Shown: positions 538 to 28,657 of the stretch, one piece after another
Position numbering within the stretch: the stretch's first letter is position 1
Layout of the letters: each line of letters begins with the position of its first letter
Assembly (NCBI RefSeq): GCF_004803695.1
Contig: NZ_CP039393.1
Location: 558,001 to 622,000, forward strand
Length of the DNA stretch: 64,000 nucleotides
Origin: Muribaculum gordoncarteri
GTDB lineage: Bacteria; Bacteroidota; Bacteroidia; Bacteroidales; Muribaculaceae
Reading direction: 5' to 3'
The notes under the pieces: model-generated
The model's input: only the letters and a program-made list of their open reading frames with translations
What the model was told of the DNA's origin: nothing
Database searches by the model: none
Translations under genes and position numbers: made by a program

Positions 538-2100
538 TCACATCTTTATGCTGTTTTCATCATCTATGCGGTTATAGTCGCCACGGTAGCCAACTTCCCA
601 CTCACGGTTTTCCCCACGTCCGGAAGCCGCGTCACGCATACCTCTTATGCCGCGTCCGGTTGTTTTGTCACGAGGCTTTTCAGTTGATTGTCTGCGACGG
701 AGTTTTTCAAATCTCCTGTATTCGAGCTTACGGGTGTCAAATCCGACTTCCGAAAGATTGATGATTGTTTTTGATGAAAAATCTATTGCGAACCATTCAT
801 CGCCTTCATGTCTGATGTGGAACCCTGAAGAACGTATGGCGGCACGGAGATTTGTTATACTGTCATCATCAAAGAGCAGGTTCAGGTTATTCACCGCGTC
901 ATGGTAGCCGTTATCTCGTGACGGGGTGAGCCTTACAAGTTCCGGAGTATTCACCTTATATATACGGCAGAGCAGGTCGCGCTCGGACGCTGAGCCGGGA
1001 TGGAAAGACTCTATCCTCCGAATCTTGTCATTCCGTAGAATTGTGGAGGCCATAAAATCCTTTAGCGGCCGTGTGATTCCTCCGCAATATATCACGCCTC
1101 GTCTTATGTATGCGTTACTGCGGAATAGTTTTTTGTTGATGGCCCATGTGTCTATTGTCGGATTATCCTCCAGCAGCCTGTCAATGAAAGCGTCGATACG
1201 TGCGAGTTTTTCTTCCGGTGTGGAGAAATCAAGAAGTGATTTTATAGACAACACCCATGCGCCGTTATATACGGTTTTGTTCGCATGATCCACTATCATG
1301 TAGCCATAGGGATTGTCAGAGCGTCCGAAGAAAACGAGATCAATTCCCAGCTTGCGTTTAACCGCATCCTGTAGTTCCCGGCGGTCGGAGCTTACATCCC
1401 GGTATTTCCGCAGCATGGCCCACAACTGCCTCCTGCGTTTGTCGTCAACACTGACCCTCTGGAATCTGTCGCTTATCTCGGCAAAGTTAATCTTTACCTG
1501 CACTGCACCGTCGCGCTTGATATACACAACATCGTTCTTCTCATACACCTCATAGCCCATCGAGGACATCAGGGCCTTGTATTGCGCGAATGTGGAGAAT
1601 GTATAGGTCAGTGAGGCTGCAAGATCCTCACCGGCCTTTGCCTTTACATCATTTCCGACAAGCCTGTTCAACACAGCTTGTGACCTAACCCTTTCATGGT
1701 GGTCGCTGATTTTCTTTCCGTCTGGAGAAATGCGGGAGGTGATTATATGTATATGTGTGTTGTCGGTATCGGTATGTGAATATACCAGCAAAGGCTGCCC
1801 CTCGCTTCCATATCCCATTTCACCGAGATACCTGTGGGCGAAATCCAGCAGCTCATCTTCCGATTTTTCATGTCCTTTGCAGGATATGGCCAGATGGAAC
1901 TGGGCTTTTTTGATTCTCGAATTTCGGGAAGAGTAGGCTATCAAATAGTCCTGAAGCTCTTTCGGTGTCGGCTGTGAGAGTACCCCGACATGGCCGAAAT
2001 TGCTCATCTCAAGAAGGCGTGCCACTCCCAGGGCCACCTTTTTCTCATTATATGCAACTGCGTGAAAGTTGGAACTTGACGGAAGTATTGTAGCTATCAT
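538..2100 (-). CDS. Relaxase/mobilization nuclease (MobB-type, MOBP-like)
   Basis: 520 residues. The N-terminal 130 residues carry the relaxase three-histidine signature: H109 in VYSHTD and H116/H118 in THIHIITSR, with motif I-like QFHLAIS at 68-74. The protein would nick oriT and stay bound to the 5' end during transfer. The middle and C-terminus are Arg/Lys-rich without a domain I recognise. It lies 88 bp downstream of the MobC-like gene; the gap holds an 18-bp repeated word. Start ATG at 2100 is the first in frame. Relaxase identity is firm; the exact MOB subfamily is an inference. Confidence 0.92.
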   Translation of the reverse strand: MIATILPSSSNFHAVAYNEKKVALGVARLLEMSNFGHVGVLSQPTPKELQDYLIAYSSRNSRIKKAQFHLAISCKGHEKSEDELLDFAHRYLGEMGYGSEGQPLLVYSHTDTDNTHIHIITSRISPDGKKISDHHERVRSQAVLNRLVGNDVKAKAGEDLAASLTYTFSTFAQYKALMSSMGYEVYEKNDVVYIKRDGAVQVKINFAEISDRFQRVSVDDKRRRQLWAMLRKYRDVSSDRRELQDAVKRKLGIDLVFFGRSDNPYGYMIVDHANKTVYNGAWVLSIKSLLDFSTPEEKLARIDAFIDRLLEDNPTIDTWAINKKLFRSNAYIRRGVIYCGGITRPLKDFMASTILRNDKIRRIESFHPGSASERDLLCRIYKVNTPELVRLTPSRDNGYHDAVNNLNLLFDDDSITNLRAAIRSSGFHIRHEGDEWFAIDFSSKTIINLSEVGFDTRKLEYRRFEKLRRRQSTEKPRDKTTGRGIRGMRDAASGRGENREWEVGYRGDYNRIDDENSIKM

Positions 2101-2188: not shown

Positions 2189-2584
2189 CTAAGAGCGTAG
2201 CCTTGTCGCTTTCTTGGCAATGTGAGCCTGTTCCTCCTTTATCGACACCACGAGCCTCGATACTTTTTCAATCAGGGGGGATAGATTATCCCTGAAATAA
2301 CTCTCGGACAGGATGCCGGCTACGGCAAGTTCGTTGGCTCGTTTGACAGCCTGATTCAGATTGCTTCCCATCCAGGACAGCTCATCTTGGAATTTGCGGC
2401 ACAGCCGGGCTGTGTCGTTACACAATTCAAGGCGCGTCTTTGCATCGGTATCCGAAAACTCGTTGACTGCCATCCTTATAAAGTTGCTCACGCTGTGGTA
2501 GCGTTTCGATTTTTCACGGATTCCGGCAATTTCCTCAGGCGTAAGCCTCATTTCAAATCTTTCAGTTCGCTGCTTCATATCCAT
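2189..2584 (-). CDS. MobC/BfmA-like relaxosome accessory protein
   Basis: 131 residues. Residues 8-50 look like a ribbon-helix-helix DNA-binding fold (FEMRLTPEEIAGIREKS followed by SVSNFIRMAV). The segment ELSWMGSNLNQAVKRAN at about 68-84 matches the conserved L-W/I-G-NLNQ-AN pattern of MobC family proteins. These bind oriT and help the relaxase nick. The gene precedes the relaxase on the same strand, the usual order in Bacteroides mobilizable elements. The candidate oriT lies 50-110 bp upstream of its start. Confidence 0.85.
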   Translation of the reverse strand: MDMKQRTERFEMRLTPEEIAGIREKSKRYHSVSNFIRMAVNEFSDTDAKTRLELCNDTARLCRKFQDELSWMGSNLNQAVKRANELAVAGILSESYFRDNLSPLIEKVSRLVVSIKEEQAHIAKKATRLRS

Positions 2585-3945: not shown

Positions 3946-3962
3946 GTGCCCAGAACAGAACT
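3946..3962. other. attL: copy of the tRNA-Leu 3' end
   Basis: GTGCCCAGAACAG-A-ACT matches 16 of 17 bases of the tRNA-Leu 3' part at 28576-28592. With the integrase 187 bp inside and the intact tRNA at the far end, this marks the left end of a 24.6-kb island. Confidence 0.82.
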
Positions 3963-4148: not shown

Positions 4149-5576
4149 ATGGCAACATTTAGATTTGAACTCGACCATAAGCCGACCCGCAATAAGACCT
4201 ACAACCTCTATCTGATGGTGACGGCTGCGGGTAAACGCACAAAAAAGAAGACCGGTATTCAGTTGAAACGCATTGACGACTTCAATCCTCAATGCAAGGG
4301 AAACAACTGGATTCGAGCGAATGTTCCCGAGGCAAAAGTCCTCAATGAGCAGTTGCGCCTTATGCTCGCGCAAGCTAACGAGGCTTATCAGGAATTGGCA
4401 TCAGATGGCGATGTTTCATCCGCCAAGGTTATAAAGAATCTGGATGCTGAATATGTGTCGCCGTCTTTTATGGCGTTTGCCCGTGAGCGTGCGCAGATGA
4501 TTTATGACAACGGGGGATGGAGAAACTGGCGCAAGTATTGTGGCCTCATCAATAAGCTCGATGCCTTCCGCAAGAAACGCCGTATGGCTGATATAACCGT
4601 CGATGACCTGACTGTTGATTTGTTGACTCGCTTTGACAACTTCCTCCACAAATGGGAGAATGAACGTGAACCGGGCAAATTGCTCCATCCTAACACAATC
4701 GAAGTTCAGTTTAACATTTTGCGTACACTTGTTCATCGAGCAATCGAGGTCGGTATAATGGAAGCGTCAAAGGATCCCTTCCTCGTATTCAAATACAAGG
4801 GAGTAAAGACAACGAAAGAAAAGTTGAGCGATACGGAAATGGAGCGCATTATTGCGCTTGAACTTGAAGAAGGTTCGCTAATATGGCATTGCAAGAATTA
4901 TTTCCTGTTCAGTTATTATTGTGCCGGAATCCGTGCCGCCGACTTGATTCAGCTTCGTTGGCGTAATGTTACCGAAAATGGGCGACTTCATTATCAGATG
5001 GGCAAAAACCACAAAGACCGAGACCTCTTACTCGTCGACCAAGCGTTGGATATTCTTCGGTATTATCACAATGAAGACGTGAAACCGGATGATTATATAT
5101 TCCCGCTGCTTGACAATGATGCGCCGTTTGTCAAATTTGTAATGCAGGCGGATAAGGACAGGATGAAACCGGAGCTGCGCCACCAGCTGTATCAGCAGAT
5201 TTCAGCCAAAAATGCCCTCATAAACAAGTATCTCAAAAAGATTGCTGAAAGAGCCGAGATTACCACCAATCTCACGATGCACATCAGCCGTCATGCTTTT
5301 GCTCACATCGCACAAGAAGCCGGGGCTGAATCATCCGCTATCAAGAACATTCTCGGGCATAGCAATCTCGCCACGACCGAGCGTTACATGGGTAGTTTCG
5401 ATACATCCAAAACCGATAATACTCTGCGCACTCTCTTCAAAAAGAAATCTGGGTCCAAGATGGCGCCACAGGAGGGAGCAGATAGTTCAATGTCGAAAGA
5501 AGAGAAAGCCATCGAACTGCTGAAAGGCATGACTCCTGAGCAAATAATGGCTGTGATTTCGGCAATCAACAAATAG
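4149..5576 (+). CDS. Tyrosine recombinase (island integrase)
   Basis: 475 residues. N-terminal arm-binding region rich in Lys (residues 1-40, RKTYNLYLMVTAAG-type), SAM-like core-binding domain at about 100-210, and catalytic domain at about 220-420. The catalytic set is visible: Arg in CAGIRAADL (about 262), H-x-x-R in HISRHAF (about 378-381), GHSN, and the nucleophile Tyr in ERYMG (about 413). Layout and length fit the Bacteroidetes integrases of conjugative and genomic-island type. It lies 187 bp inside attL and reads inward, and presumably recombines the 17-bp core in tRNA-Leu. An extra 50-residue Lys/Glu-rich tail follows the Tyr. No excisionase gene is adjacent; the HTH gene at 12078 is a candidate. 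Confidence 0.95.
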   Translation: MATFRFELDHKPTRNKTYNLYLMVTAAGKRTKKKTGIQLKRIDDFNPQCKGNNWIRANVPEAKVLNEQLRLMLAQANEAYQELASDGDVSSAKVIKNLDAEYVSPSFMAFARERAQMIYDNGGWRNWRKYCGLINKLDAFRKKRRMADITVDDLTVDLLTRFDNFLHKWENEREPGKLLHPNTIEVQFNILRTLVHRAIEVGIMEASKDPFLVFKYKGVKTTKEKLSDTEMERIIALELEEGSLIWHCKNYFLFSYYCAGIRAADLIQLRWRNVTENGRLHYQMGKNHKDRDLLLVDQALDILRYYHNEDVKPDDYIFPLLDNDAPFVKFVMQADKDRMKPELRHQLYQQISAKNALINKYLKKIAERAEITTNLTMHISRHAFAHIAQEAGAESSAIKNILGHSNLATTERYMGSFDTSKTDNTLRTLFKKKSGSKMAPQEGADSSMSKEEKAIELLKGMTPEQIMAVISAINK

Positions 5577-8068: not shown

Positions 8069-8193
8069 GACGACTGTTGACTTTTTGTTAACAATGGTTA
8101 ATTGATAAAATATAATCCTCTGATTCTATGTAGTTTATGTGCGATTAGGGCAAATTCAGGCAAATATAGGCCTTGCAATCAAAGGATTTTCTT

Positions 8194-11004
8194 ATGAATG
8201 AATCTGAGTATAACGAACTGGAAAAGTTGCGAATTGAGAATGCCCGACTTAGGGCATTGCTGGCGAAGCATGGAATTGTTGTAGAAGAATCAACTTCGTC
8301 AGTAGTATCAACGCTATCCTTGGAGGAGAAGGTCATGCTGTTTCGCAGTTTGTTTCAGGGACGAGAGGATGTGTTTGCCCGTAGGTGGTTTAGTCCAACA
8401 ACTGGTAAAAGCGGTTATCAGCCGGTATGCGCTCGGGAATGGAATCGGCAATATTGCGATAAGAAAAAGTATAAATGTGCTGAATGTCCCAACCGCGAAT
8501 TCCAGCCGCTTGGATATAATGACATTTACCGGCATCTTGAAGGGAAAGACCCAAATGGACGTGATGTTGTAGGAGTTTATGCTATTTTAGAGGATAGTAC
8601 TTGCAGTTTTCTTTGTTGCGACTTCGATGACAAGAGTTGCGAGCATGGGTATCAAGATGATGTAAGAGCATATGTGTCTGTCTGTCGCGAGTGGGGCGTT
8701 CCGGCATATATCGAGCGATCTCGCTCCGGCAATGGCGCTCATGTCTGGATTTTGTTTGTCGAACCGATAAAAGCTCAGACGGCACGGCGATTGGGCAATG
8801 CAATCCTGACAGAGGCGATGGAGCGAGAGGGAAGAATGTCTTTCAAATCATACGACCGTTTCTTTCCCAACCAAGACCTTATGCCTACGGGCGGATTCGG
8901 CAACCTCGTTGCCTTGCCACTGCAAGGGAGAGCGCGTAAAGACGGTAACAGCGTGTTTGTGGATGATGACTTCATCCCCTTTACTGACCAATGGGAATAT
9001 CTGCAAGGAATGACGAAGATGACAGCCGCAGAGGTTGAGAAGTTAGTGGCGAGATATGACCGGGAGCCGCTTGGCGAACTGTCAAAGTCCAGCGAATCCG
9101 CACCATGGGAACGCCCGTTGCCAAAGCCTATGAATAAGGCTGATTTCCCTAATAGCATCACCATTATACGCTCATCCGGCATTTATATTCCGACAAAGGA
9201 TTTGTCTGCCAAAGCTATAAATCATCTTAAGCGTCTGGCAGCGTTCAAGAACCCTGAATTTTATGCGAAACTCGGAATGCGACTGCCTGTCTATAATCTT
9301 CCACGCATAATATCATGCTCGGAGATAACTGACGAATATCTCATTCTGCCAAGAGGTTGTGAAGATTCCGCCATGGATTTCCTCAGAGAAAATAATGTGG
9401 ACGTTGAGATTCAGGATAAGGCAAACCCGGGAATGCCTATTACGGTAGAGTTCAATGGACAGCTGTATCCTGAGCAAGAACAAGCGATTGTTGAACTTGC
9501 CCGGCATCGTTGTGGAACCCTGTATGCTACAACAGCCTTTGGCAAAACCGTTACCGCTGCCGCTATGATTGCACGAAAGGAGGTCAACACTCTGATATTG
9601 GTACATACCAAGGCATTGCTCGACCAATGGCGCGAACGTCTGTCGGAATACTTGATAACAGATTTTCAACCGGAGGAACAACCCAAAGGTCGTGGCCGGC
9701 GTAAGAAATTTCAACAATTCGGAGCATTATCATCTGCTGAGAACACTCTCAATGGCAAAATTGACATCGCTCTACTACAATCGTGCATTAATGACAATGA
9801 GGTAAAACCGTTTGTGCGCGAGTATGGCGTGGTGATAGTCGATGAGTGCCATCATGCCCCGGCGGTCAACTTTGAGCGCGTTCTCCGTGAGGTGAGCGCT
9901 CGTTATGTCTATGGACTTACCGCCACGCCAATACGCAAAGACGGCCACCAGCCGATCATCTTTATGCAATGCGGTGAAATCCGTTATACGTCCGATGCAA
10001 AAGCACAGTTGTCTAAACAATCATTCCGGCGACTTCTTATCCCGCGTTTTACTTCTCATCGCAATCTCAATGCCGATGGCAGCAACTACGCTCAGATTCT
10101 CGATGAGCTAACCGAAAACGAATCGCGAAATAAGCTCATACTGGATGATGTCGCTGCCAACCTCGCCGAAGGACGCACTCCGATAATTTTGACTGCTCGA
10201 ACGGCTCACGTTGATATCCTTACCGAACAATGTCGTAAGATCTGTCCGAATGTCATACGACTCGTAGGCAATGATTCAGCAAAAGCCAAGCGAGAGGTGA
10301 TGTCTCGACTGAACGATATTCCGGCAAACGAACTATTGATTATTGTCGCCACCGGCAAATACGTCGGAGAAGGTTTCGACCTTCCGCGGCTCGACACTCT
10401 GATGCTTGCCCTCCCTGTGTCATGGAAAGGACTTATTGCACAATACACTGGACGACTGCATCGCAACTATCCCGGTAAAAACGAAACCCGTATCTACGAC
10501 TACATCGACCTGCGCGTTCCGGTCTGTGACTCGATGTATCGTAAGCGTCTTCAAGGTTACAAAGCGGTAGGCTATTCCATCGCTGTCGCTAACGAAGGGC
10601 TGTTTGCCGAACCTACAACTGAGACCATCTTCGATGCGTCGGATTTTGAAAAACCATTCCATGACGATCTTGCATCAGCGAAACAAAGTATCGTAATTTC
10701 GACAATGCGTTTGCGCTGGAATAAGACACCACGAATCATCGACCTGCTCGCCGCCACCACACTACGCGGTATAAGTGTCACAATCGCCATCTCTGAAACA
10801 GGCCATCGAGAAACCGAACTTCAGGCGATGGGCTTCAACATCATTCACCGTCCGGAATGCAAGATGCAATGCGCCATCATAGACCAATGTATAGGGTGGT
10901 ACGGCAGCGTCAACCTCATCGGTCGTTCTCTTGCTGACACCAATGTTATACGGATGGCCTCATCTGATTTGGCGAATGCCTTAATGGATGCTTTGAGGCT
11001 GTGA
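8194..11004 (+). CDS. TOTE-type primase / SF2 helicase / PLD-like protein
   Basis: 936 residues from ATG 8194; an in-frame TTG at 8173 is less likely because the ATG has AAAGGA upstream. After a short coiled coil (1-30) comes a Zn-ribbon-like patch (CDKKKYKCAEC) and an archaeo-eukaryotic primase fold: catalytic CDFDD (about 143-147) and SGNGAHVWI (His about 183), with GGFGNLVALPLQ. Next is an SF2 helicase: TTAFGKT (about 444-450), DECHH (about 550), GLTATP and a motif VI region (YTGRLHR). The last 110 residues resemble a PLD domain, but the H of H-x-K reads Glu (ECKMQCAIID), so this site may be inactive. This domain order is that of the TOTE conflict systems, thought to act against invading DNA. 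No TOTE partner gene is next to it. Confidence 0.85.
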   Translation: MNESEYNELEKLRIENARLRALLAKHGIVVEESTSSVVSTLSLEEKVMLFRSLFQGREDVFARRWFSPTTGKSGYQPVCAREWNRQYCDKKKYKCAECPNREFQPLGYNDIYRHLEGKDPNGRDVVGVYAILEDSTCSFLCCDFDDKSCEHGYQDDVRAYVSVCREWGVPAYIERSRSGNGAHVWILFVEPIKAQTARRLGNAILTEAMEREGRMSFKSYDRFFPNQDLMPTGGFGNLVALPLQGRARKDGNSVFVDDDFIPFTDQWEYLQGMTKMTAAEVEKLVARYDREPLGELSKSSESAPWERPLPKPMNKADFPNSITIIRSSGIYIPTKDLSAKAINHLKRLAAFKNPEFYAKLGMRLPVYNLPRIISCSEITDEYLILPRGCEDSAMDFLRENNVDVEIQDKANPGMPITVEFNGQLYPEQEQAIVELARHRCGTLYATTAFGKTVTAAAMIARKEVNTLILVHTKALLDQWRERLSEYLITDFQPEEQPKGRGRRKKFQQFGALSSAENTLNGKIDIALLQSCINDNEVKPFVREYGVVIVDECHHAPAVNFERVLREVSARYVYGLTATPIRKDGHQPIIFMQCGEIRYTSDAKAQLSKQSFRRLLIPRFTSHRNLNADGSNYAQILDELTENESRNKLILDDVAANLAEGRTPIILTARTAHVDILTEQCRKICPNVIRLVGNDSAKAKREVMSRLNDIPANELLIIVATGKYVGEGFDLPRLDTLMLALPVSWKGLIAQYTGRLHRNYPGKNETRIYDYIDLRVPVCDSMYRKRLQGYKAVGYSIAVANEGLFAEPTTETIFDASDFEKPFHDDLASAKQSIVISTMRLRWNKTPRIIDLLAATTLRGISVTIAISETGHRETELQAMGFNIIHRPECKMQCAIIDQCIGWYGSVNLIGRSLADTNVIRMASSDLANALMDALRL
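10970..10989 (+). repeat. 20-bp direct repeat, copy 1 (partner 12638-12657)
   Basis: TGGCGAATGCCTTAAT then one variable base and GAT; 19 of 20 bases match 12638-12657. Both copies are read in the same frame, giving LANALMD near the C-terminus of the primase-helicase and MANALID at the start of the PLD-helicase. They bracket a 1.65-kb segment holding the hairpin-rich tract and the HTH gene. Confidence 0.8.
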
Positions 11005-11021
11005 AACTATAAGAAAACATG

Positions 11022-11131
11022 GGGACTGCGACTTCGGAGCGGTCCCAAGCCCCGGCACGGCAAGGTCATTTCGTGGTAACGGCAGAGTTACCCGAAATCC
11101 AAACGGTAACTGTTTGGACACCTTGCTGTGC
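11022..11131 (+). ncRNA. Candidate structured RNA: UUCG hairpin plus three-way junction
   Basis: Starts 18 bp past the primase-helicase stop. Hairpin 1: GGGACTGC (11022-11029) pairs with GCGGTCCC (11039-11046) around a C(TTCG)G cap. Then a three-way junction: P1 11055-11066 with 11120-11131 (GCAC-g-GCAAGGT / ACCTTGC-t-GTGC); P2 11068-11080 with 11087-11098 (ATTTCG, bulged T, GGTAAC / GTTACC-CGAAAT); P3 11099-11104 with 11112-11117 (CCAAAC / GTTTGG). The P3 loop repeats GGTAAC and could pair with GTTACC of P2, allowing a switch. A 12-bp direct repeat, CTATAAGAAAAC, lies at 11007-11018 and 11150-11161 on either side. Strand is assumed to be that of the neighbouring genes. No known RNA family recognised. 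Confidence 0.5.
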
Positions 11132-11439
11132 TCCAATGGGCACACTCTCCTATAAGAAAACCTGAATGGATTGCCTCTGTCGTAGTCCCTGTTCAGAGGC
11201 TGTGCAGATGTCGAGGGTAAAGATTTCGGATGGAACGATGCTGGAGACGGGGCTATATCTATTGTATATAGCGATATACATGTACAACCTTATGCTATAT
11301 CTGGCCAAAAATGTTTGGAGGGAATGAAAAATTATCCCTTACTTTGCAACGGCAACGACACGAAACGCCTCCGACGGGAGGCTCTCAAATCGGGTCGATG
11401 ATACGAGATGTCTCTTAATAATACTATGACACCCGACGG
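11132..11439. other. Non-coding stretch between RNA candidate and hairpin array
   Basis: No gene seen. It contains a perfect 7-bp hairpin (GCCTCTG 11173-11179 with CAGAGGC 11194-11200), an AT-rich tract with TATATAGC/GCTATAT words around 11250-11310, and a CCTCCGACGGGAGG hairpin near 11369-11382. The AT-rich part could hold a promoter or an unwinding region, but no clear TAnnTTTG box with a -33 partner was found. Confidence 0.4.
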
Positions 11440-12027
11440 TGATTGACTGTGGCCAACCACGAAGTGCTCGCGTGTGGGCTTGACCCACCGCAATCAGTCG
11501 CACAACTGAATCCCCGTCAAGTCACAATTGATTTTCAGCGCGATAGGCTCACGCCTATGCGTGGATGGTAAATGTTACCGCCCCTATGACCGTCGATTGC
11601 TGCCGCCCATGTTGTCCCACGGCAATTCAATCGACACTTCACCCAACTGATTATACACCTGTTTGATTGACCGGGTAAAGCATCAATCATTCAGTTGATT
11701 GCCTGCCTCGCCAAACAAGCGATTGAGTGACTGATTGGTTAGTCAGAACGTCAGTATCGCTAATGTCCAAAGTGGCAGAACTGCAACTGACTGATTGGCT
11801 AATCAGGCAGAATACCGCTCGCTTGATTGACTGAAGCCATACCCAATCAATCGCCCACCCAATCATCTGACTGCGCAGTTGCGCGATTAACCGGTTGATT
11901 GGTTGAAGACCTGATTAGTCAGCACTTCAACCAATCAGTCAATCGCCTGTGCAACCGACTGATTGAGTGGTCAGGCAGTTGCATATTCAGTTGAGTGAGC
12001 GGTCAAGCGATTAGACAACTGAATTAT
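11440..12027. repeat. Array of TGATTG/CAATCA words in successive hairpins
   Basis: TGATTG starts at 11440, 11664, 11696, 11732, 11792, 11824, 11896, 11960; CAATCA at 11491, 11684, 11844, 11860, 11932; CGATTG/CAATCG variants at 11594, 11628, 11720, 11848, 11940. Thirteen exact copies in about 520 bp is far above chance (about 0.25 expected). Many lie in hairpins: 11592-11635; 11728-11745; 11787-11810; a 13-bp perfect stem 11896-11908 with 11925-11937 inside outer arms 11883-11888 and 11941-11946; 11951-11982; 11986-11993 with 12016-12023. No open frame of note. It may be an array of binding sites, an origin, or a structured RNA. Confidence 0.8.
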
Positions 12028-12077
12028 CAACCGGATTTCATCTTCTTTGTAGATGGAGTCAGAACCCTCACGCCCTA

Positions 12078-12389
12078 ATGCAAAGTACCTCGCAAAATAT
12101 CAACCCATCAACTCTATTGTTCGTAGTGCCGGAAGAAGAATGGCGCAACCTCCATGCCACACTGGAGCAAATCATCGACCTCATCACCCGGCGCAACGCC
12201 GACGACTCCAGCAGCGAATGGATAGAATCCGAAGCTGCTCGAAAGCTCCTCGGCATATCCCCCAAGACGTGGCAGAACTACCGCGACCAACGCCTCATCC
12301 CCTTCTCGCAGATAGGCCGCAAAATCTACGTCAACCGCACCGACCTCGACGCTTTCCTCCGTAAGCATCGCATCGCGCCGAGAAAATAG
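12078..12389 (+). CDS. Excisionase-like helix-turn-helix protein (103 aa)
   Basis: Residues 45-95 form an HTH_17/excisionase-type winged helix: WIESEAARKLLGISPKTWQ, then YRDQRLIPFSQIGRKIYV and DLDAFLRKHRI. Small proteins of this type are common on Bacteroidetes conjugative elements and act as excisionases or regulators. It follows directly after the TGATTG array and precedes an inverted repeat that covers the promoter of the helicase-methylase operon. It is therefore the natural candidate to bind both. ATG 12078 is chosen over an overlapping out-of-frame reading from 12053, whose product is Pro/Arg-rich and unlike a protein. Confidence 0.8.
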   Translation: MQSTSQNINPSTLLFVVPEEEWRNLHATLEQIIDLITRRNADDSSSEWIESEAARKLLGISPKTWQNYRDQRLIPFSQIGRKIYVNRTDLDAFLRKHRIAPRK

Positions 12390-12414: not shown

Positions 12415-12450
12415 GGCAATCGGTTGTGTTTTACAGCATAACCGATTGCC
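12415..12450. promoter_or_regulatory. Inverted repeat overlapping the helicase operon promoter
   Basis: Perfect 11-bp arms GGCAATCGGTT (12415-12425) and AACCGATTGCC (12440-12450), 14-nt spacer. The right arm includes the -33 TTG of the downstream promoter. The arms carry CAATCG/CGATTG, variants of the word repeated in the 11440-12027 array. It could be an operator for the HTH protein, or a weak terminator for its gene; there is no T tract behind it. Confidence 0.6.
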
Positions 12451-12475
12451 ATCTCGAAAATTCTTTGTAACTTTG
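12446..12475 (+). promoter_or_regulatory. Promoter of the PLD-helicase/methylase operon
   Basis: TTG (12446-12448), 19-bp spacer, TAACTTTG (12468-12475). This leaves a leader of about 155 nt before ATG 12637; the leader contains a five-codon ORF (ATGGCCGAAACGGTTTAA, from 12504). Confidence 0.7.
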
Positions 12476-12636
12476 CATAAATAGCAACCATAAAAATCTG
12501 AATATGGCCGAAACGGTTTAAACCCTCAGGCAGCGATGCCGCCAAACCACTCAAATTCCGAAACTCCCAAGCAGTCGTTGCAGGCTCGGCCAGCCCTCAG
12601 ATAACTGCCACCGGAGTTTTAATTTTTTTCATAGAT

Positions 12637-15600
12637 ATGGCGAATGCCTTAATAGATAATTCCGAGCAGTTTAAGCTCGTCAAATATATTAAAGAGTTGG
12701 TCTCACGACCTGATTGTAATCATATTATGATTGCGACTGGTTATTGGGACTTACCCGGCACTGCTTTAGTCTATGAAGAACTTAAGGACTTTTTTTCAAG
12801 GGGTGGGAAACTTGACTTACTGATAGGTCAGGAGCCACAATTGCAATATTATCAAGCCTCTCGTGAGGCGCATCAATTCCCGGATTTCTATATTCAGAGA
12901 GATGTCGAATCTCTTACCGATGAGTATAAACCCATTGGTAAGCTGATTATTGATAATGCCTTGACAGAAGAGAATCCGGATGGAAAGTTTGAGATTCGTG
13001 TGTATGGTCAGGGGGAACATAAAGAATTCCTCCATGCTAAGTGTTACATTTTTCTTGGTAATGGATTAGGAACCGGTATTATCGGCAGCTCGAACTTTAC
13101 AGCAAAAGGTCTTCAGAGTAATGCGGAATTGAACTACCTTGAAGAAAATAGCAACTGCGTTACAGCAGATTTCACACTATATTCAAATACGAAATCTCAC
13201 AAAGCATGGTTTGAGGAGCTATGGCAGAACAGCGAATTATGGTCTGGCAAGTTTATTAAAAATATTCTTAAGCCATCACCTATCGGTGTAGAAATTGAGA
13301 AAGACAATGAGACTGAAAATCCTCTTACTCCTTACGATGTCTATATCAAGTATCTACAATTGCAATTTGGAGATATGGTAGATGCGAATACATCTGAAAT
13401 TCTTAAATCCTATTTGCCACCGTCATTCAATACTCTTGAATATCAGCTTGACGCGGTAAAACAATGCTTCTCGGTGATGAAACGATTTGGGGGTTTTATT
13501 CTTGGTGATGTTGTAGGACTTGGCAAAACTGTTGTAGGTGTATTGCTTATCCGTCATTTCCTTGAAAATGCCGAATCTCTCGGTCGCGCTCGTAAAGTGC
13601 TGATTGTAACTCCGCCAGCGATTAAGAAAGCATGGGAAAAGACAATCCAGGATTTTGACAATGATAATCCTCGTAATAATATTGGTCTATGTGTCGAATT
13701 TGTGACAACCGGAAGCATCGGTAAAATTACTGATGAATTGGAGGATGTCGATGATGTTGATGATAGTGACGAAATTGATAACATTGAGGTTGGGAACTAT
13801 GGTTTGGTACTAATTGACGAGAGCCACAATTTCCGCAACTCTGATACTCAAAAATACAAGGCGATTGATGACCTGATTGGCATTATCAATCCCACTCCCT
13901 ACGTTGCACTATTATCTGCAACTCCACAGAATAACTCGCCTAAAGATCTTTATAATCAAATACGCTTATTTCAACGCACACCCAACAACTCTAACTTGCC
14001 TAATGTCGAGGGTGGCAAGCTTGACTCTCTATTTAATGCGATGGAAAGACGCTTTAAAGAAGCACGAGCCATTTCTCAGGATACAGATGAGGGTAAAATT
14101 CAAGCACGCACTATTGTTAAGGAGGTCTCAGAAAAAATCCGAAACAGTGTCCTTAATGACCTCGTAGTTCGTCGTACCCGTACCGATATTAGAAATCTAT
14201 ATGGAGAAGATGCAGAATTACTGAAGTTCCCCACTGTCAAAGGGCCACATAAGCTCGAATATAAGATGGATGAGGAACTATCAAAGCTCTTTTCTGATAC
14301 CGTAGATGCCATATGTCCTCCTGCCTTAGGAGAGTCTTTTGACCCGAATAAACATATCGGCTTTTACCGTTATGCCGCAATTACACACTTCGTCGATGAG
14401 GGCAACAAGAAACTGTATGAGAAACGAAACCTTACGGTTGATAGCATTACGCAAAGACTTCAGCGTATTATGCGGATTCTATTGGTAAAGCGTCTGGAAA
14501 GCAGTCTTGCCGCATTCAAGAAGACGCTTGAAAATCTGAACCGATACAATGAGGTTATGATAGATATGCTCCAACACGACTGTGTATTTATATGTCCTGA
14601 TATAGATGTAAACAAATTGCACAACGAGTCCAAGGGTAATTTTGCCGCTTTCAAAACTGCGGTAGAAACTATCATAGCTCGTAAAGGTGGTAACAACAGG
14701 TGTTTTAAGTCCTCTGATTTTAAGGAATCGTATCTCGCAGACTTGCAAAATGACAAACTACTTATCGGTTCTTTACTTGAACGGTGGAGAGAAAACACGG
14801 AAGATCCAAAATTCGACCGGTTCAAGGACGCTATAAATCCCGAACTTTTCAATCCTGAAATTAATAATCCATCGGGAGCGAATAAACCTCGCTTAGTTAT
14901 ATTTACTGAAGCTATTGACACTCTCAAATCATTGGAGAGAGCATTGAAAGCTAAAGGTCATAAAGTTTTGAGTATTTCGGCAGGGAATCGGACTGAAAGA
15001 CAAGAAGAAATTGAAGCCAACTTCGATGCAAACTGTAAGCCGGATAAGCGTCGTGATGATTACGATGTTATCGTTACAACCGAAGTTCTTGCTGAGGGAG
15101 TGAATCTACACCGTTCTAATGTCATTCTCAATTATGATGCACCATGGAACGCGACACGTTTGATGCAGCGCATAGGTCGTGTGAACCGAATAGGCTCTAC
15201 TGAAAACTTTGTCCATGTATTCAACTTCTTCCCATCAGACGAAGGCAACAGTCAAATTCGTCTGATTGAAAAAGCATACGCTAAACTCCAGTCTTTCCAT
15301 GAGATGTTTGGCGAAGATAATAAGGTTTTCAGTGAGCGCGAAGAACTTGTTGAGCATGACCTGCAACATTTCGTTGATGGTGATGAATCTCCGTTTGGGC
15401 CATTTATCAAAGAACTGAAAGCATTTCGGGATAATTCATCGGAACGATATGATTATATCGCCTCCGTAGATGCTAACGGACTTGGAGGTGTTTTAGAGAT
15501 TCGTGATGAAAACGCTCATGGTTTTTTCGTATTCACAGACGACTCGCAAGAATTGATTTCAGTAGATGTAGAGAAAACTCAGGAAGATACTTCTTCTAAC

Positions 15601-16041
15601 ATAATCTCCTCATTGTCTACTATGCAGCGATTGAAATGTGAGCCTGATGCGGAGTTTTTCAATATGCAATGTGATGACACACTTGCTGAAATAGCTAAGC
15701 GAGCCTATCAAAAACACGTTGCCCACTATATTACAGCCGCTGATTCAAGCAGAAAGTCTGCGAATGCACTTGCCGTGTTATCATCCTTACGCTCTCGTTC
15801 GGATGTGACACAAGAGTCGAAAAAACTCTTAAAACAGATTGAAAAACTTGTCAGAGCAAAAGATAACTATGTCATCAAACAGGTTATGAGATTCGAGAAC
15901 TACCAAGGTTCGCTCTTTGGTGCTAATGACGATATAAATGCTTTGCTTGATACAGCTCTATCAAATTTAGCTCACCGCGCTCAAGCGAAACGTGGAGACG
16001 CTAAACTAGTAATTTATTCTGAAACGAAATACAATAACTAA
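12637..16041 (+). CDS. PLD nuclease - SNF2-type helicase fusion
   Basis: 1134 residues. The N-terminal 200 residues hold one PLD motif: HAKCYIF (His about 133) and GIIGSSNFTAKGL. The helicase core follows: GDVVGLGKTVVG (Walker A, about 290), LIDESHNF (motif II, about 394), LLSATPQNN, and in the C-terminal lobe EVLAEGVNLHRSNVILNYD and RLMQRIGRVNRIGS (motifs V and VI). The Asp-rich insert at 366-380 is odd. It is joined to the methylase with a 2-bp gap. PLD-helicase plus methylase recalls DISARM, but DrmA and DrmB are absent; the helicase-methylase-ATPase group (Hma) may be nearer, from memory and unchecked. Probably restricts foreign DNA. Confidence 0.88.
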   Translation: MANALIDNSEQFKLVKYIKELVSRPDCNHIMIATGYWDLPGTALVYEELKDFFSRGGKLDLLIGQEPQLQYYQASREAHQFPDFYIQRDVESLTDEYKPIGKLIIDNALTEENPDGKFEIRVYGQGEHKEFLHAKCYIFLGNGLGTGIIGSSNFTAKGLQSNAELNYLEENSNCVTADFTLYSNTKSHKAWFEELWQNSELWSGKFIKNILKPSPIGVEIEKDNETENPLTPYDVYIKYLQLQFGDMVDANTSEILKSYLPPSFNTLEYQLDAVKQCFSVMKRFGGFILGDVVGLGKTVVGVLLIRHFLENAESLGRARKVLIVTPPAIKKAWEKTIQDFDNDNPRNNIGLCVEFVTTGSIGKITDELEDVDDVDDSDEIDNIEVGNYGLVLIDESHNFRNSDTQKYKAIDDLIGIINPTPYVALLSATPQNNSPKDLYNQIRLFQRTPNNSNLPNVEGGKLDSLFNAMERRFKEARAISQDTDEGKIQARTIVKEVSEKIRNSVLNDLVVRRTRTDIRNLYGEDAELLKFPTVKGPHKLEYKMDEELSKLFSDTVDAICPPALGESFDPNKHIGFYRYAAITHFVDEGNKKLYEKRNLTVDSITQRLQRIMRILLVKRLESSLAAFKKTLENLNRYNEVMIDMLQHDCVFICPDIDVNKLHNESKGNFAAFKTAVETIIARKGGNNRCFKSSDFKESYLADLQNDKLLIGSLLERWRENTEDPKFDRFKDAINPELFNPEINNPSGANKPRLVIFTEAIDTLKSLERALKAKGHKVLSISAGNRTERQEEIEANFDANCKPDKRRDDYDVIVTTEVLAEGVNLHRSNVILNYDAPWNATRLMQRIGRVNRIGSTENFVHVFNFFPSDEGNSQIRLIEKAYAKLQSFHEMFGEDNKVFSEREELVEHDLQHFVDGDESPFGPFIKELKAFRDNSSERYDYIASVDANGLGGVLEIRDENAHGFFVFTDDSQELISVDVEKTQEDTSSNIISSLSTMQRLKCEPDAEFFNMQCDDTLAEIAKRAYQKHVAHYITAADSSRKSANALAVLSSLRSRSDVTQESKKLLKQIEKLVRAKDNYVIKQVMRFENYQGSLFGANDDINALLDTALSNLAHRAQAKRGDAKLVIYSETKYNN

Positions 16042-16043
16042 CT

Positions 16044-19000
16044 ATGGAACTCAAGCATAAGTTAGAAAAAATATTTAACGATGATTATCCCGGAACTGAA
16101 CGTTTCATAGCGGATGTTATTGAACCAATCTTCGGTAATGAAATCGAAAATATTAACGATGACCTTGCCGAAAGAGATGAGTATGCAGAAAAAGCTAAAA
16201 AAGCCGGCATCAAGCACATCAAATATATCGGAAACCTCACAGAAAAGAACTACAATGCTGATAATATTGCACTTCTTGATGTAACTCTTGATGACTCAAA
16301 GAACATAGAGCGTTCACGCGTCAATATTCAGCAACTTATCCGCTCTATAATGGATTATCGTCAACATCTTATGATTGTATTCCATTACGAAGATGTCGCA
16401 GATAGACAATGGAGATTTTCTTACGCATATAAAGGAGATTCTTTAAAGGATTCCACCTCTGCCAAACGCTACACTTACGTTTTTGGCAAAGGCTACCATG
16501 GTCGTACCGCAGCCGAGCGCTTTCAAACTCTTGCTGAAAGTCCACGTAATAATGAAGACTTTGAAAAAGCATTCTCCGTTGCGACTCTAAGCAATGAGTT
16601 TTTCGGTAAATACCGTGATATCTATGCTGATTTTGTCCAATATATCACTGGAAAACGATACGAGAAAATTAAAAACAAGTGGGAGGAAGTAAAAAAAGAA
16701 GACCCTAACACTGAAATTTTCTCGCAATTCAAGAATGATAATAAAAGAGTAAGAGATTACGTTAAGAAGATGCTTGGTCGTCTGACATTCCTCTGCTTCC
16801 TGCAAAGGAAAGGTTGGATGAATAACGACCGAAACTTTTTGCAGAATCTTTATCAATCGTCTCCTCTTCAGGATGACTTCCTTGATGCCGTTCTAGAACC
16901 TTTATTCTTTGGTGTGCTGAATACTCCACCTGAAAAACGCAAGGAAATATTTGCAAAAAATGGATGGAATACAGATTTAGCAGATGAATGGAACGAAATT
17001 CCATATCTCAACGGAGGCCTTTTCGAACAGACACGTGAAGATAAACTCACTGTCAAGTTCCCTAAAAAGCTATTCCAAGAACTGTTTAAGTTTTTAGGAG
17101 AATATAATTTCACTATTGACGAGAATGATCCGGATGATGCTGAAATTGGCATTGACCCGGAAATGTTAGGACGTGTATTCGAAAGTCTTCTTGAAGATAA
17201 TAAAGACAAGGGAGCTTTCTATACTCCTAAAGAGATAGTTCAGTATATGTGTCGCCAGAGCATTATTGAACATCTAAAGACTCATACAGCCGAATCGCTT
17301 CACCCGGATATCGAAGACTTGATTAATCAGGGTCTTGTCAATCATGCTCTGCAAAATAAGGATAATGCGAGAGCAATTTATAAGCTTCTTAAAGAGATAA
17401 CTGTATGCGATCCGGCAATTGGTTCCGGGGCATTCCCCATGGGCATTCTCAATATCCTTTTTACTGCGCGTCAGCACCTATATGGCTTCCTTAAAGAATC
17501 AGAACCGTTTAATCCTCTCGAAGTGAAGAAGGCTATTATTCGGGATAATATATACGGGGTCGATATTGAACAAGGAGCGGTTGACATTGCTCGACTCAGA
17601 TTTTGGCTTGCCATTCTTTTGGAGGAACAACAAAAACTCCCGCTTCCTAATCTTGATTACAGGATTGTGCGTGGCAACTCTCTTATCACTACATTTAACG
17701 ATGAATATATAGCACTACCAGAAAAACCGAAAGGCAGCACAAGACTTGGTAAACTTAAGAAAGAGCTTCATCTTTTTCAAAACGATTTATTTGACTTGAA
17801 CGGAGATAAGAAATTCCAACGCGAAATAGAAATCAAATGTAAGATACTGGATATTCTTAAAGTTCAACTTGGCATTGATAAAGCTAATGCTCAGGTAGAA
17901 AGTAGAATTGAATCTGATATATTTGAGGATAAAAAGTTATCCGGAAAGGCGTTAAAGAAAGCCAAACAAGCTCGTGCGATTGAAGAAGTTAAGAGTAAAA
18001 GCCTTTTTGCCCTGAATAATCTTATAACTTCGTTGACTACACCTGCAACCTCTTTAGCAGATAGAGCACAGATTGACATTAAATTCTTTGACTGGAAAAT
18101 TGTATTTAGCAATATCTTTAGTGATGATGCTAATGCCTCCGGTTTTGACATTGTTATTGGGAATCCGCCGTATATAGTATATGAGGGTACAAATACATCG
18201 GATTTGCCAATTCTAAAAGCTATTCGAGAATATAAATCTGCGTTTGGGGGAAAGCTTAACGCATATAAGGTTTTTGTCGCTAGCGCTTTTAATATTTTGT
18301 GTAAACCGAATGGTATTGTGGATTTAATATTTCAGAACTCATTTTTGGCTGATAAACAGGCAACGCTGTTAAGACGCGATATTCTTTCGACTCATAAGGT
18401 TATTGGACTCGATTCTTTCCCAGAGCGTGATAATAAAAAGAAACGCGTTTTTGAAAGTGCAAAAATGAGCGTGTGTATATTATGTGCCCAAAAAGGCCTC
18501 TCTTCGTCTGAAAGTTTCACTGTGAATTTTTGGGATGATAGGCATATGACATCTGGTCTTAAAACTCGGTTCTCATTTAATGACATTCAATCAATAGATC
18601 CCGTAAACTATAGTATTCCTAGATTGGCCTTGGCTAACATTCCTTTAATTGCTAAAATGGCAAAGAAGAATGATATACATTTAAATTGCTACCAAGGAGA
18701 ACTCAACGTGTCTGTTCACAAGGAATATTTTACGAAGAATCCTGCATTTCCAGCAATATTAAAAGGAGCATCGATTCAACGTTACTACTATACTTTTAAT
18801 ATGAGTCAGGGTGTCATTGAATATGTGGATGAACCAAAATACTTATCTAGATTTGGCACTTCCGAGAAATCTCAACATCATACAAGTCCTCGTATAGTAA
18901 TGCAAGGTATGACAGGTGCAAACGATAAAGTTAGACTCGTTAGTGCACTTGTGCCGAGTGGATATTACCTTGCTCATTCATGTAACTATATAGTCCCATG

Positions 19001-19355
19001 TGATGAGATTGATTTAGTTGCATTGCTAGCGATATTAAATTCAAAGGCAATGAATTGGTATTTCAGATGTTTCAGTACTAATAGCAACGTCAATAGTTAT
19101 GAGGTTGAAAATCTCCCAATACCTAGATTAGATAGAAGACAAGAGGAATTACTCCATGATTTAGTAACCAATGTTACTGAAGAAAAACAAAAAAATCCCA
19201 CAGTTGATACTTCATCCAACGAGTCATTAATAGATATCATTGTATATCATCTCTACAATTTGATCTACGATGAAGTCCTCATCATTGATCCACAAACACC
19301 AATCTCTCGTGAAGAGTATGAATTGTTTAATATAGACACTTATGGACAATCGTGA
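16044..19355 (+). CDS. Eco57I-type N6-adenine DNA methylase
   Basis: 1103 residues. Motif I is DPAIGSGAFPMG (about 456-467) and motif IV NPPYIVYEG (about 707), with GAFYTPKEIVQYM typical of type I/IIG methylases. The last 350 residues (QRYYYTFNMSQGVIEY onward, and NSNVNSYEVENLPIP) look like the target-recognition part. The first 450 residues are helical and may carry a nuclease remnant, but I see no clear PD-ExK site. It would mark host DNA for the helicase next to it. The following 116-aa gene overlaps its end by 14 bp, so they are translationally linked. Confidence 0.88.
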   Translation: MELKHKLEKIFNDDYPGTERFIADVIEPIFGNEIENINDDLAERDEYAEKAKKAGIKHIKYIGNLTEKNYNADNIALLDVTLDDSKNIERSRVNIQQLIRSIMDYRQHLMIVFHYEDVADRQWRFSYAYKGDSLKDSTSAKRYTYVFGKGYHGRTAAERFQTLAESPRNNEDFEKAFSVATLSNEFFGKYRDIYADFVQYITGKRYEKIKNKWEEVKKEDPNTEIFSQFKNDNKRVRDYVKKMLGRLTFLCFLQRKGWMNNDRNFLQNLYQSSPLQDDFLDAVLEPLFFGVLNTPPEKRKEIFAKNGWNTDLADEWNEIPYLNGGLFEQTREDKLTVKFPKKLFQELFKFLGEYNFTIDENDPDDAEIGIDPEMLGRVFESLLEDNKDKGAFYTPKEIVQYMCRQSIIEHLKTHTAESLHPDIEDLINQGLVNHALQNKDNARAIYKLLKEITVCDPAIGSGAFPMGILNILFTARQHLYGFLKESEPFNPLEVKKAIIRDNIYGVDIEQGAVDIARLRFWLAILLEEQQKLPLPNLDYRIVRGNSLITTFNDEYIALPEKPKGSTRLGKLKKELHLFQNDLFDLNGDKKFQREIEIKCKILDILKVQLGIDKANAQVESRIESDIFEDKKLSGKALKKAKQARAIEEVKSKSLFALNNLITSLTTPATSLADRAQIDIKFFDWKIVFSNIFSDDANASGFDIVIGNPPYIVYEGTNTSDLPILKAIREYKSAFGGKLNAYKVFVASAFNILCKPNGIVDLIFQNSFLADKQATLLRRDILSTHKVIGLDSFPERDNKKKRVFESAKMSVCILCAQKGLSSSESFTVNFWDDRHMTSGLKTRFSFNDIQSIDPVNYSIPRLALANIPLIAKMAKKNDIHLNCYQGELNVSVHKEYFTKNPAFPAILKGASIQRYYYTFNMSQGVIEYVDEPKYLSRFGTSEKSQHHTSPRIVMQGMTGANDKVRLVSALVPSGYYLAHSCNYIVPCDEIDLVALLAILNSKAMNWYFRCFSTNSNVNSYEVENLPIPRLDRRQEELLHDLVTNVTEEKQKNPTVDTSSNESLIDIIVYHLYNLIYDEVLIIDPQTPISREEYELFNIDTYGQS

Positions 19356-19692
19356 TTATATGAAAGCATTTGGCGAATGGCTATGTTCCATCGCTCCGAA
19401 CTCATTGGTTAAATCTCTGACACATGACTCTATAAGGTATATGTACGAGCGAGATTATGTAATTGTTACTAATTTATGCAATGGCTTTTGGAAAATTCCC
19501 ACTATATCAATTAAGACAATAGATGGAGCAAAAGAACGCTATAAAGAAGTCAATAAGGCGTTGTTAGAAATCTCCCCTCTAGCCGAAGATGAGAAGGAAA
19601 AGGTATCAGTCCAAATCGATCTCAATGCTGAAGAACAAAAGAGGATATGGATAAATATTCTTCAAGTAAAATGTATAACAATAACTGAGTAA
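19342..19692 (+). CDS. Unknown 116-aa protein of the methylase operon
   Basis: ATG 19342 lies inside the end of the methylase gene (14-bp overlap). The protein is mixed alpha/beta: DNRDYMKAFGEWLCSIAP, then IRYMYERDYVIVTNL, then a charged helix AEDEKEKVSVQIDLNAEEQ. No membrane segment or known motif. Its tight coupling to the methylase suggests a shared function, perhaps specificity or anti-toxicity; that is a guess from position. Confidence 0.7.
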   Translation: MDNRDYMKAFGEWLCSIAPNSLVKSLTHDSIRYMYERDYVIVTNLCNGFWKIPTISIKTIDGAKERYKEVNKALLEISPLAEDEKEKVSVQIDLNAEEQKRIWINILQVKCITITE

Positions 19693-19700
19693 TAAATTAT

Positions 19701-20195
19701 ATGTGTCCATATTGTAATGCAAACGCTGAAATGATACCGGTATCTACCGTCTGGTGGATTGTAGTAATATCTGTTTTAGCAACCTTCATAATTTCGTGGT
19801 TTCTATTCCATCACCTGTGGTTTAAGAAAACTTCATATCCGAAGTTTTGCAAACGTATAGAAAATGCAATAGAGTTTTTGGGGTATTGGTTGCAGCGTCT
19901 TTGGTATGCGATTCTATTTGTCGGTAGTTCAATCTATCTATTTATACATTTTGAAGAGTGCAGAGATTTGACTTTCACACCTAAATTTAATGGATTTAAC
20001 GTCATCTTTGTGTTTTGGCTGATTCTTTTAATTCTTCCCCTTTTTGAGAAATTCGAGGGGTTCGGTGTAAATCTTAAATTGAATCGTCAGAATAAAATTT
20101 CAACAGATGCAGCCTCAAAAGCCATGGACTCTACAGATATAATGAGTGTTGAGGAATTAGATCAGATGCATCGGGAAGGAGGTAACAATGAATAA
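19701..20195 (+). CDS. Membrane protein with N-terminal CPYC (164 aa)
   Basis: Starts CPYCNANAE, a CxxC metal- or redox-type motif, followed by three hydrophobic segments at about 16-38, 66-86 and 100-115. The C-terminal 45 residues are polar and end EELDQMHREGGNNE. It starts 8 bp after the previous gene and overlaps the next by 8 bp. A membrane protein inside a restriction-like operon is unusual and could be an effector that damages the membrane. No family recognised. Confidence 0.7.
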   Translation: MCPYCNANAEMIPVSTVWWIVVISVLATFIISWFLFHHLWFKKTSYPKFCKRIENAIEFLGYWLQRLWYAILFVGSSIYLFIHFEECRDLTFTPKFNGFNVIFVFWLILLILPLFEKFEGFGVNLKLNRQNKISTDAASKAMDSTDIMSVEELDQMHREGGNNE

Positions 20196-28573: not shown

Positions 28574-28657
28574 TGGTGCCCAGAACAGGACTCGAACCTG
28601 CACGCCTCGCAGCACTCGCACCTGAAACGAGCGCGTCTACCATTCCGCCACCTGGGC
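28574..28657 (-). tRNA. tRNA-Leu (anticodon CAG)
   Basis: 84 nt with encoded CCA. Acceptor GCCCAGG pairs with TCTGGGC; D-arm TGGCGGAATGGTAGACGCG; anticodon loop TTCAGGT gives CAG; a long variable arm fits tRNA-Leu; T-arm GCAGGTTCGAGTCCTGT. It is the target of the island. The intact gene stays at the right end because the island restores the 3' part. At attL the bases after the discriminator read CTG instead of CCA. Confidence 0.95.
28576..28592. other. attR within the tRNA-Leu 3' end
   Basis: GTGCCCAGAACAG-G-ACT, 16/17 identical to attL 3946-3962. It marks the right end of the island. Confidence 0.82.

Follow-up and report, generated by a model that had tools for sequence, protein, structure and literature searches.

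An oriT region very probably captured from a CTnDOT/CTn341-type conjugative transposon, with a word array in a 4-bp register, in a tRNA-Leu island of Muribaculum gordoncarteri

The window (the whole 64-kb stretch of M. gordoncarteri DNA analysed here) contains a 24.6-kb tRNA-Leu island, and a non-coding cassette of this island is the subject of the present work. The island is bounded by att repeats at 3946-3962 and 28576-28592, with the consensus GTGCCCAGAACAG(A/G)ACT at both ends. Its ends, the neighbours of the cassette and part of the cargo are as follows.

3946-3962, no strand: attL, GTGCCCAGAACAGAACT (repeat; homology to two other islands begins nearby, at 3902 and 3953)
4149-5576, plus strand: tyrosine integrase of the island (Pfam)
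8173-11004, plus strand: TOTE-type primase-helicase, left neighbour of the cassette (Pfam AEP-TOTE and ResIII/DEAD; PLD under cut-off)
12078-12389, plus strand: HTH_17, excisionase-like protein, right neighbour of the cassette (Pfam HTH_17, E 5.5e-13)
21478-25140: nSTAND3 NTPase, cargo (Pfam)
25141-26145: RhuM, cargo (Pfam)
27598-28470: Fic/Bro-N, cargo (Pfam)
28576-28592, no strand: attR, GTGCCCAGAACAGGACT, in the 3' end of tRNA-Leu(CAG) at 28574-28657(-) (repeat and tRNA)

Between the att repeats, 15 ORFs were taken as genes. Pfam analysis of these detected integrase, SLFN_AlbA, TOTE, HTH_17, helicase, methylase, nSTAND3, RhuM and Fic/Bro-N families, and no relaxase, transfer or T4SS family (six of the ORFs match no family). 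The island carries defence-like genes. The protein encoded at 12078-12389 scored 20.8 bits with the NCBIfam excise model, under the cut-off of 28.8, and is a candidate recombination directionality factor. The cargo at 12425-20102 (PLD-SNF2 helicase and Eco57I-type methylase) shares 99.88% identity with genome G001 (locus L039) over 7678 bp, and in that genome TOTE is about 90% and the oriT region 84-94% identical to the window; the cargo just behind the HTH gene has apparently been exchanged recently between the two lineages. Outside the island, to the left of attL, the window has another mobilizable element (538-2700), with a MobB-like relaxase at 538-2100(-) and a NikA-like gene at 2189-2584(-). 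This relaxase sits outside attL and hence is not an island gene.

An earlier note on this DNA, made from the letters alone, had pointed out an array of short words arranged in hairpins between the TOTE and HTH genes. The array and its parts are listed below.

11440-12030, no strand: flagged word array as a whole (word counts and homologues)
11450-11491, no strand: lineage-specific insertion of a hairpin into the tip of the first inverted repeat (alignment; 29+6 nt beyond four other islands and both homologous conjugative transposons)
11538-11585, plus strand: two very conserved short hairpins directly before the lattice, including an invariant 25-nt stretch (alignment; helices 3 and 4 of the consensus fold)
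11560-12040, no strand: 4-bp lattice domain, most pronounced from about 11640, in which direct and inverted words share a register (sliding lattice score)
11896-11937, no strand: best hairpin, with perfect 13-bp arms

The reported 8 TGATTG and 5 CAATCA words and their CGATTG/CAATCG variants were correct on recount. Within 11440-12027, TGATTG starts at 11440, 11664, 11696, 11732, 11792, 11824, 11896 and 11960, CAATCA at 11491, 11684, 11844, 11860 and 11932, CGATTG at 11594 and 11720, and CAATCG at 11628, 11848 and 11940. Elsewhere in the window the maximum of TGATTG/CAATCA in a 588-bp stretch is 5. The repetition is far above chance: direct 6-mer repeats in 11440-12040 number 206 vs. 53.7 ± 9.9 in dinucleotide shuffles, and inverted 6-mer repeats 238 vs. 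56.1 ± 9.3 (0/200 shuffles as high in either case). The two arms of the 13-bp stem (11896-11908 and 11925-11937) are indeed exact reverse complements, no ORF of at least 60 aa is listed inside the tract, which had been described as non-coding, and Pfam confirmed AEP-TOTE to the left and HTH_17 to the right. The longest stop-free run across 11005-12078 is 95 codons. An Rfam search of the tract at gathering scores and a plasmid blastn search with it gave no match. Two points had been overlooked: the 4-bp positional register of the words, and the extension of the conserved unit leftward to about 11015, which brings in the oriT core.

A 43-bp part of the insertion at 11450-11491 is found in dispersed repeats of genome G036 (5 matches, four viewed). 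These repeats (L007, L010, L011, L013, and L014) are about 290 bp each, and the four viewed copies have the inverted ends AACAG..CTGTT; a 43-bp hairpin is common to the repeat and to window 11454-11495. The array of G078 contains two copies of the G036-type repeat unit, both in opposite orientation to that of the window.

The flagged tract is the right part of a non-coding cassette of about 1 kb (11015-12035). The homologue of this cassette in a CTnDOT/CTn341-type conjugative transposon (CTn) is the gap between mobA and traA, the oriT region. Two features lie in its left part.

11017-11157, plus strand: oriT core with a CGACTTCGGAG box, a GCAAG...CTTGC outer stem and a terminal hairpin (covariance model R1)
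11253-11347, plus strand: promoter-like segment common to islands and the CTn traA upstream region (alignment of six islands and two CTns)

At two CTn loci, L041 (genome G160) and L042 (G108, contig 16), the homologous DNA lies exactly between a divergent mobA(-) and a ParA-like traA(+). Left of the tract, 350 bp align with the window at 73-74% identity; in the tract itself the identity is 69-71%, along 420-500 bp. Since this homology spans the mobA-traA gap, the conserved unit is about 1 kb long and the array forms its right part. We take this gap to be the location of oriT in CTnDOT/CTn341-type CTns. The L041 mobA gene is of the MobC_2 type (139 bits with NCBIfam Bacteroid_MobA, cut-off 150); mobB and mobC, behind mobA, score above their cut-offs. 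Two DUF3408 genes come after traA, and a Bacteroides-type TraG ATPase lies farther downstream.

The R1 model was built from mobA-upstream DNA of Bacteroidales genomes found with the MobA model (20/295 genomes). Cores were chosen by the GCAAG..CTTGC pattern, which was present at 16/27 mobA loci; one duplicate was dropped and 15 were aligned, excluding the islands and L041/L042. The model has at least one two-sided change in 15/26 pairs, and it leans to the GCAAG..CTTGC motif because the cores were selected by that pattern. It also recovered 11 loci of the MobA set absent from its alignment. In the window there is only one full R1 match, at 11017-11157 (41.9 bits, E 6.9e-8), and it starts 13 nt past the TOTE stop codon. 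R1 also matches the five other islands that share the cassette (listed below), both homologous CTns, and the mobA-ParA-DUF3408 loci in records of Bacteroides fragilis (strain 214), B. ovatus and a Parabacteroides distasonis plasmid at 128.7, 122.3 and 87.4 bits, respectively.

The cassette therefore resembles the oriT region of CTnDOT/CTn341-type elements in its core, in the homologous array of L041 and L042, and in the neighbourhood annotated in the named records (mobA-mobB-mobC and ParA/ATPase-DUF3408). The difference is that the island lacks mobA and has the HTH_17 gene at the place of traA. The copy in the window is not located between mobA and traA as in L041 and L042, and this putative oriT is a captured copy outside its home context. 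The cassette is very probably an oriT region captured from a CTn of this type. The earlier note had listed a transfer origin among its readings; this part is supported, although the oriT core is found to the left of the flagged array, which is its companion. The promoter-like segment has TTTG at 11314-11317 and TTACTTTG at 11339-11346, 21 nt apart, and may be a promoter by the Bacteroides consensus. A promoter-like motif of the cassette recurs in L087 (1495-1590) and L097 (about 1500-1590, minus strand), approximately 1.2 kb before another gene that by eye is HTH-like; no oriT and no lattice were found at these two loci.

Matches to the tract at E ≤ 0.001 were found in 10/397 genomes of the family. 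The cassette with the same neighbours occurs in six islands (the window, G078, G108 contig 65, G090, G001, and G123); a 180-bp part of the array is missing from four of them. The homology search proposed earlier thus located tracts beside the same genes in other genomes, and the array does not fall for want of such homologues, which had been named as the outcome that would speak against it. As far as the fetched stretches extend, the order is integrase, SLFN_AlbA protein, TOTE, cassette, HTH_17, and cargo. In G123 TOTE is reduced to its last 47 residues and the cassette and HTH gene are retained, which rules out a dependence of the cassette on TOTE. TOTE was detected in 23/397 genomes of the family, with an R1 match within 1.5 kb downstream in 7/23 loci (several contigs end early).

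This distribution bears on whether the words are operators of the neighbouring HTH_17 protein, as had been suggested. The gene is directly downstream in all six islands and its product is HTH_17/excisionase-like. However, the homologous array of L041 and L042 precedes traA in place of the HTH gene, and no HTH relative was found in these two CTns; conversely, unrelated oriT regions are followed by an HTH relative in the islands L127 and L045 (59% identity of the HTH) and L043 (90% identity in the last 42 residues). The arrays of L041 and L042 rule out the operator as the main reading, and we consider it quite improbable.

Related islands carry other CTn-type oriTs at the position of the window's cassette. 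The oriT region of G009 (TOTE 87% and integrase 92% identical) is unrelated and is followed by a DUF3408 gene. The gene order is SLFN-TOTE-mobA-oriT-HTH in G292 and mobA-oriT-HTH in G003, and there was no mobB match within the fetched stretches of these two genomes. The genome of the window itself has a second integrase island at C1:1508821, unrelated to the first, with an oriT of 65.4 bits and its own array; no MobA or MobB match was found in 19 kb. This locus (L137, C1:1500000-1519000) also has a DNA methylase-like gene (by eye) and a lattice score of 0.434, among the strongest, and it is a candidate second relaxase-less island. The only MobA+MobB element seen in the same genome (C1:3233188) has a different oriT region and no lattice, and no TraA was found there.

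R1 matches were obtained in 59/377 Muribaculaceae genomes, at more than 100 places, from which 80 stretches were fetched (those left out were mostly near contig ends). Classification of 95 oriT places gave 30 with MobA, MobB and TraA, 9 partial CTns, 16 with MobA only and 40 with none of the three in reach; 30 of these 40 have an integrase match. The relaxase check covered the whole island in the window and the fetched stretch elsewhere, where contig ends may hide genes. Read in this way, oriT-only islands may rival conjugative elements in number (40 places vs. 39 whole or partial CTns). Grouping of 91 loci by oriT-region similarity gave 42 clusters. Three clusters mix CTn and island loci, which suggests that oriT capture, or loss of transfer genes, happened more than once.

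We examined the positions of the words in the array. Starts divisible by 4 were found for 8/8 TGATTG, 4/5 CAATCA, 3/3 CAATCG and 1/2 CGATTG (tract 11440-12027). The sliding lattice score reached 0.26 in the array vs. a window mean of 0.002 (sd 0.027), and the six best places in a scan of the 64 kb in 60-nt steps all fell in the array. Autocorrelation of the arrays of the window, G001 and L041 has peaks at 4, 8, 12, 16 and 24 and dips at 2, 6, 10 and 14; a peak at lag 20 is absent in these three. In the window, 67/79 direct 5-mer pairs within 60 bp belong to one class modulo 4 and 104/123 inverted pairs to one class of position sum, so forward and reverse words sit on one lattice. Hairpins as the organizing principle, the picture first given of this tract, were replaced by the register, because the inverted words occupy the lattice of the direct words; the hairpins look like a by-product of it. 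The near-invariant hairpins at 11538-11585 may be a separate signal.

From about 11640 on, indels of 180, 12 and 4 nt between homologues keep the register, and a 37-nt hairpin insertion in G078 breaks it. A 4+11-nt indel at 11608/11618, which distinguishes islands from CTns, breaks it as well, and single-base indels occur at the right edge of the array. The second break weakens the argument from indels; the non-coding and shuffled controls given below strengthen the lattice.

A structured RNA leader was also considered: transcription from a promoter near 11314-11346 would give the HTH gene (or traA, in CTns) a 5' leader formed by the array, whose hairpins would regulate termination or translation. 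The conserved promoter-like segment upstream and the two very conserved hairpins at 11538-11585 agree with it, and the plus strand of the window folds strongly (z -8.25). A covariation test, which the earlier note had recommended, gave 13 pairs with two-sided changes in the consensus fold of eight sequences vs. 7.0 in shuffles (0/500 as high), although by our reading only about four distinct lineages back it. The minus strand folds equally well or better in the window (z -11.9), and L041 gave -6.2 on the plus and -5.4 on the minus strand. Both strands were tested, and because both fold well and the consensus fold of each gathers its own G-U pairs, no strand is singled out. Furthermore, an RNA structure does not need a one-register lattice that includes direct words, nor the other words in other CTns. 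The RNA proposed earlier thus gains from the covariation and loses from the missing strand signal, and the register explains the inverted words better; we regard a leader as rather unlikely.

Hairpins could also act in the transferred single strand, as a priming site or as a promoter for the leading region. Single-strand promoters are known in F-like plasmids, the position beside oriT is suitable, and DNA-parameter folds of both strands lie far below shuffles (z about -8). Yet among 11 other CTn gaps a clear excess of close hairpins was seen only in L070 and L068, and arrays of the L194 and L199 type consist mostly of direct 8-bp repeats. This role is unlikely. A 4-bp period is expected from slippage of a 4-mer, and such a period was observed in the array and at other loci; the tract might then be a functionless relic. 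We find this very improbable: the inverted words occupy the same register, the array is kept at about 70% identity between islands and CTns, and different words occur at the same place in many lineages. Compared with these alternatives, we favour a register-bound protein array beside oriT, which is probably the correct reading of the pattern.

The register was then scored at the other oriT loci. A lattice was called when the best 160-nt score in the 1 kb 3' of oriT exceeded the largest value of 161 control 1-kb stretches (0.103); these controls are mostly coding, and non-coding and shuffled controls were added. Scores above the control maximum were obtained for 22/30 full CTns, 2/8 partial CTns, 3/16 MobA-only loci and 19/37 orphan loci. 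By cluster, the lattice was found in 12/17 CTn-only, 8/22 island-only and 1/3 mixed clusters. Non-coding stretches elsewhere in the same loci exceeded 0.103 in 0/102 cases (largest 0.082), and dinucleotide shuffles of the test stretches in 1/910. In the order-level mobA set 17/27 loci were above 0.103 (750 nt used; the set includes the near-duplicates L050/L051 and L058/L067 as well as four Muribaculaceae loci). Two of the three named records exceeded it (0.117 and 0.188), and the P. distasonis locus L251 gave 0.058. L074 has the strongest word repetition among 11 CTn gaps (z 45.6), yet its lattice score is 0.061. As many loci, including L251 and L074, do not exceed the control maximum, the array is not part of every CTn-type oriT. 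The word, lattice, DUF3408, cluster and extra-control comparisons exclude loci with less than 550 nt 3' of oriT (L186, L198, and L232) as well as two second hits, L206b and L224b, and the word-repetition and lag set also excludes L224; the window was added to the word-repetition, lattice, cluster and extra-control sets, its z among word-repetition loci being carried over from the separate 6-mer repeat count.

Repeat lags divisible by 4 averaged 69% in 28 loci with a word z of at least 8 and 35% in 39 low-z loci, compared with 26% expected by lag count. Many of the loci with z of at least 8 use unrelated words, e.g., GTTCAGAC in L194 and GGCCGTAT-like words in L207. Neither such arrays nor oriT-only islands of Bacteroidota turned up in the mainly open-access literature searched.

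The genes behind the array in CTns suggest possible readers. DUF3408-family proteins were detected in 34/35 TraA loci and are also annotated in the three named records. The ParA-type gene adjoins the array in CTns, not in the island itself. TraB/TraC (DUF3408) together with the ParA-like TraA could be the readers of the array, an assignment by analogy that we hold with slightly less than even confidence. The DUF3408 C-terminus was judged by eye to be a possible ribbon-helix-helix. The single-sequence AlphaFold model of TraC (pLDDT 37.7) gave no support for this fold, comparison of DUF3408 with solved structures gave no link to solved ribbon-helix-helix proteins (best match E 0.13), and profile comparison with MobA gave no sequence link (0.6% probability).

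Islands with their own DUF3408 gene had the lattice in 1/14 cases and islands without it in 20/38 (kinship uncorrected). DUF3408 near oriT with no TraA was seen in L182, L184, L185, L205, L200, L208, L212, L043, L226, L228, L231, L234, L229, and L218, and 13/14 of these are without lattice. The scarcity of the array in such islands is predicted by no simple model. This exclusion, seen by locus, was set aside because it rests, by eye, on about six related groups.

We propose a centromere- or overdrive-like delivery site, since the lattice suits a spreading symmetric binder and ParA and DUF3408 genes follow it in CTns. The island would be excised, perhaps triggered through the HTH gene at the former traA place behind the promoter-like stretch shared with CTns. 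The MobA/MobB relaxosome of a helper would nick within 11017-11157, and the helper's secretion system would export the excised island. The array 3' of oriT would serve as a binding array on the 4-bp register for TraB/TraC, small DUF3408 proteins of the helper. With these coating the DNA next to oriT, the ParA-like TraA would bring it to the transfer pore, as ParG-ParF do for plasmid centromeres. A lattice of two-fold related, element-specific words could have been selected by a small symmetric DNA-binding protein spreading in register. The explanation as a whole, a captured oriT in an oriT-only island with a register array read by the helper's DUF3408/ParA proteins, is one that we favour with moderate confidence.

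Partition sites offer one comparison. The delta-omega sites of pSM19035 are heptads. With its regularly spaced short boxes, direct and inverted and in one register, the present array resembles type Ib partition centromeres such as TP228 parH with ParF-ParG (PMC7308502, PMC9178275), and it likewise resembles the pSM19035 sites in its short degenerate boxes at regular spacing. As with these systems, the array in CTns precedes a ParA-type gene followed by small DNA-binding candidates. Unlike them, it lies beside the oriT of a conjugative element and has a 4/8-bp register, with a binder that is inferred. The Agrobacterium overdrive with VirC1/VirC2 is a short site where a ParA-like and a small DNA-binding protein act beside the transfer origin. 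The likeness, by description, is in this pair of proteins; the overdrive is short, unlike the array.

With an integrase, att repeats and an oriT akin to one from a conjugative element, and with neither a relaxase nor a transfer family detected by Pfam, the island fits an oriT-only IME. Such elements are called iOriT in PMC11389934. Relaxase-less integrative mobilizable islands (MGIs) have an oriT like that of SXT-type ICEs, with 63% identity over 282 bp (PMC5704250, PMC11389934, PMC5397120); the present island has 73-74% over 350 bp before the tract plus 69-71% over 420-500 bp within it. MGIs and iOriT elements share with it an own tyrosine integrase, cargo, and the lack of a detected relaxase or transfer family. 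They differ in host, as relaxase-less IMEs were reported from Firmicutes and Proteobacteria in a 2017 review (PMC5704250) and the present host belongs to Bacteroidota. Here, moreover, the helper would be of CTnDOT type, the copied region includes the promoter-like part and the phased array, and relatives of the island either have another type of oriT or still carry mobA. Among Bacteroides IMEs, NBU1, Tn4555 and others are integrated and mobilized by CTns, but they have their own MobP relaxase (PMC5704250).

Capture of oriT suggests that the island travels on the transfer machinery of its helper. We tentatively extend this to a class of elements: CTnDOT-type CTns across Bacteroidales might carry, between oriT and the ParA-led tra operon, an undescribed array of several hundred bp with element-specific words on a 4-bp register, acting as a centromere-like delivery site, and relaxase-less islands might copy the matching version together with oriT to ride a chosen helper. 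In gut Bacteroides, tetracycline resistance is carried chiefly by CTnDOT-type elements. Should a phased delivery array be part of how their transfer origins function, a poorly understood step of transfer would become testable.

Two minor observations concern other parts of the window. Beside the relaxase of the element left of attL there is a partial R1 match at 2635-2693 (23 bits), and weak lattice scores (0.10 and 0.08) were obtained nearby at 2761 and 2941. At 51289-51356 a match to the Rfam Bacteroidetes FopS small RNA family was detected, barely above the gathering score.
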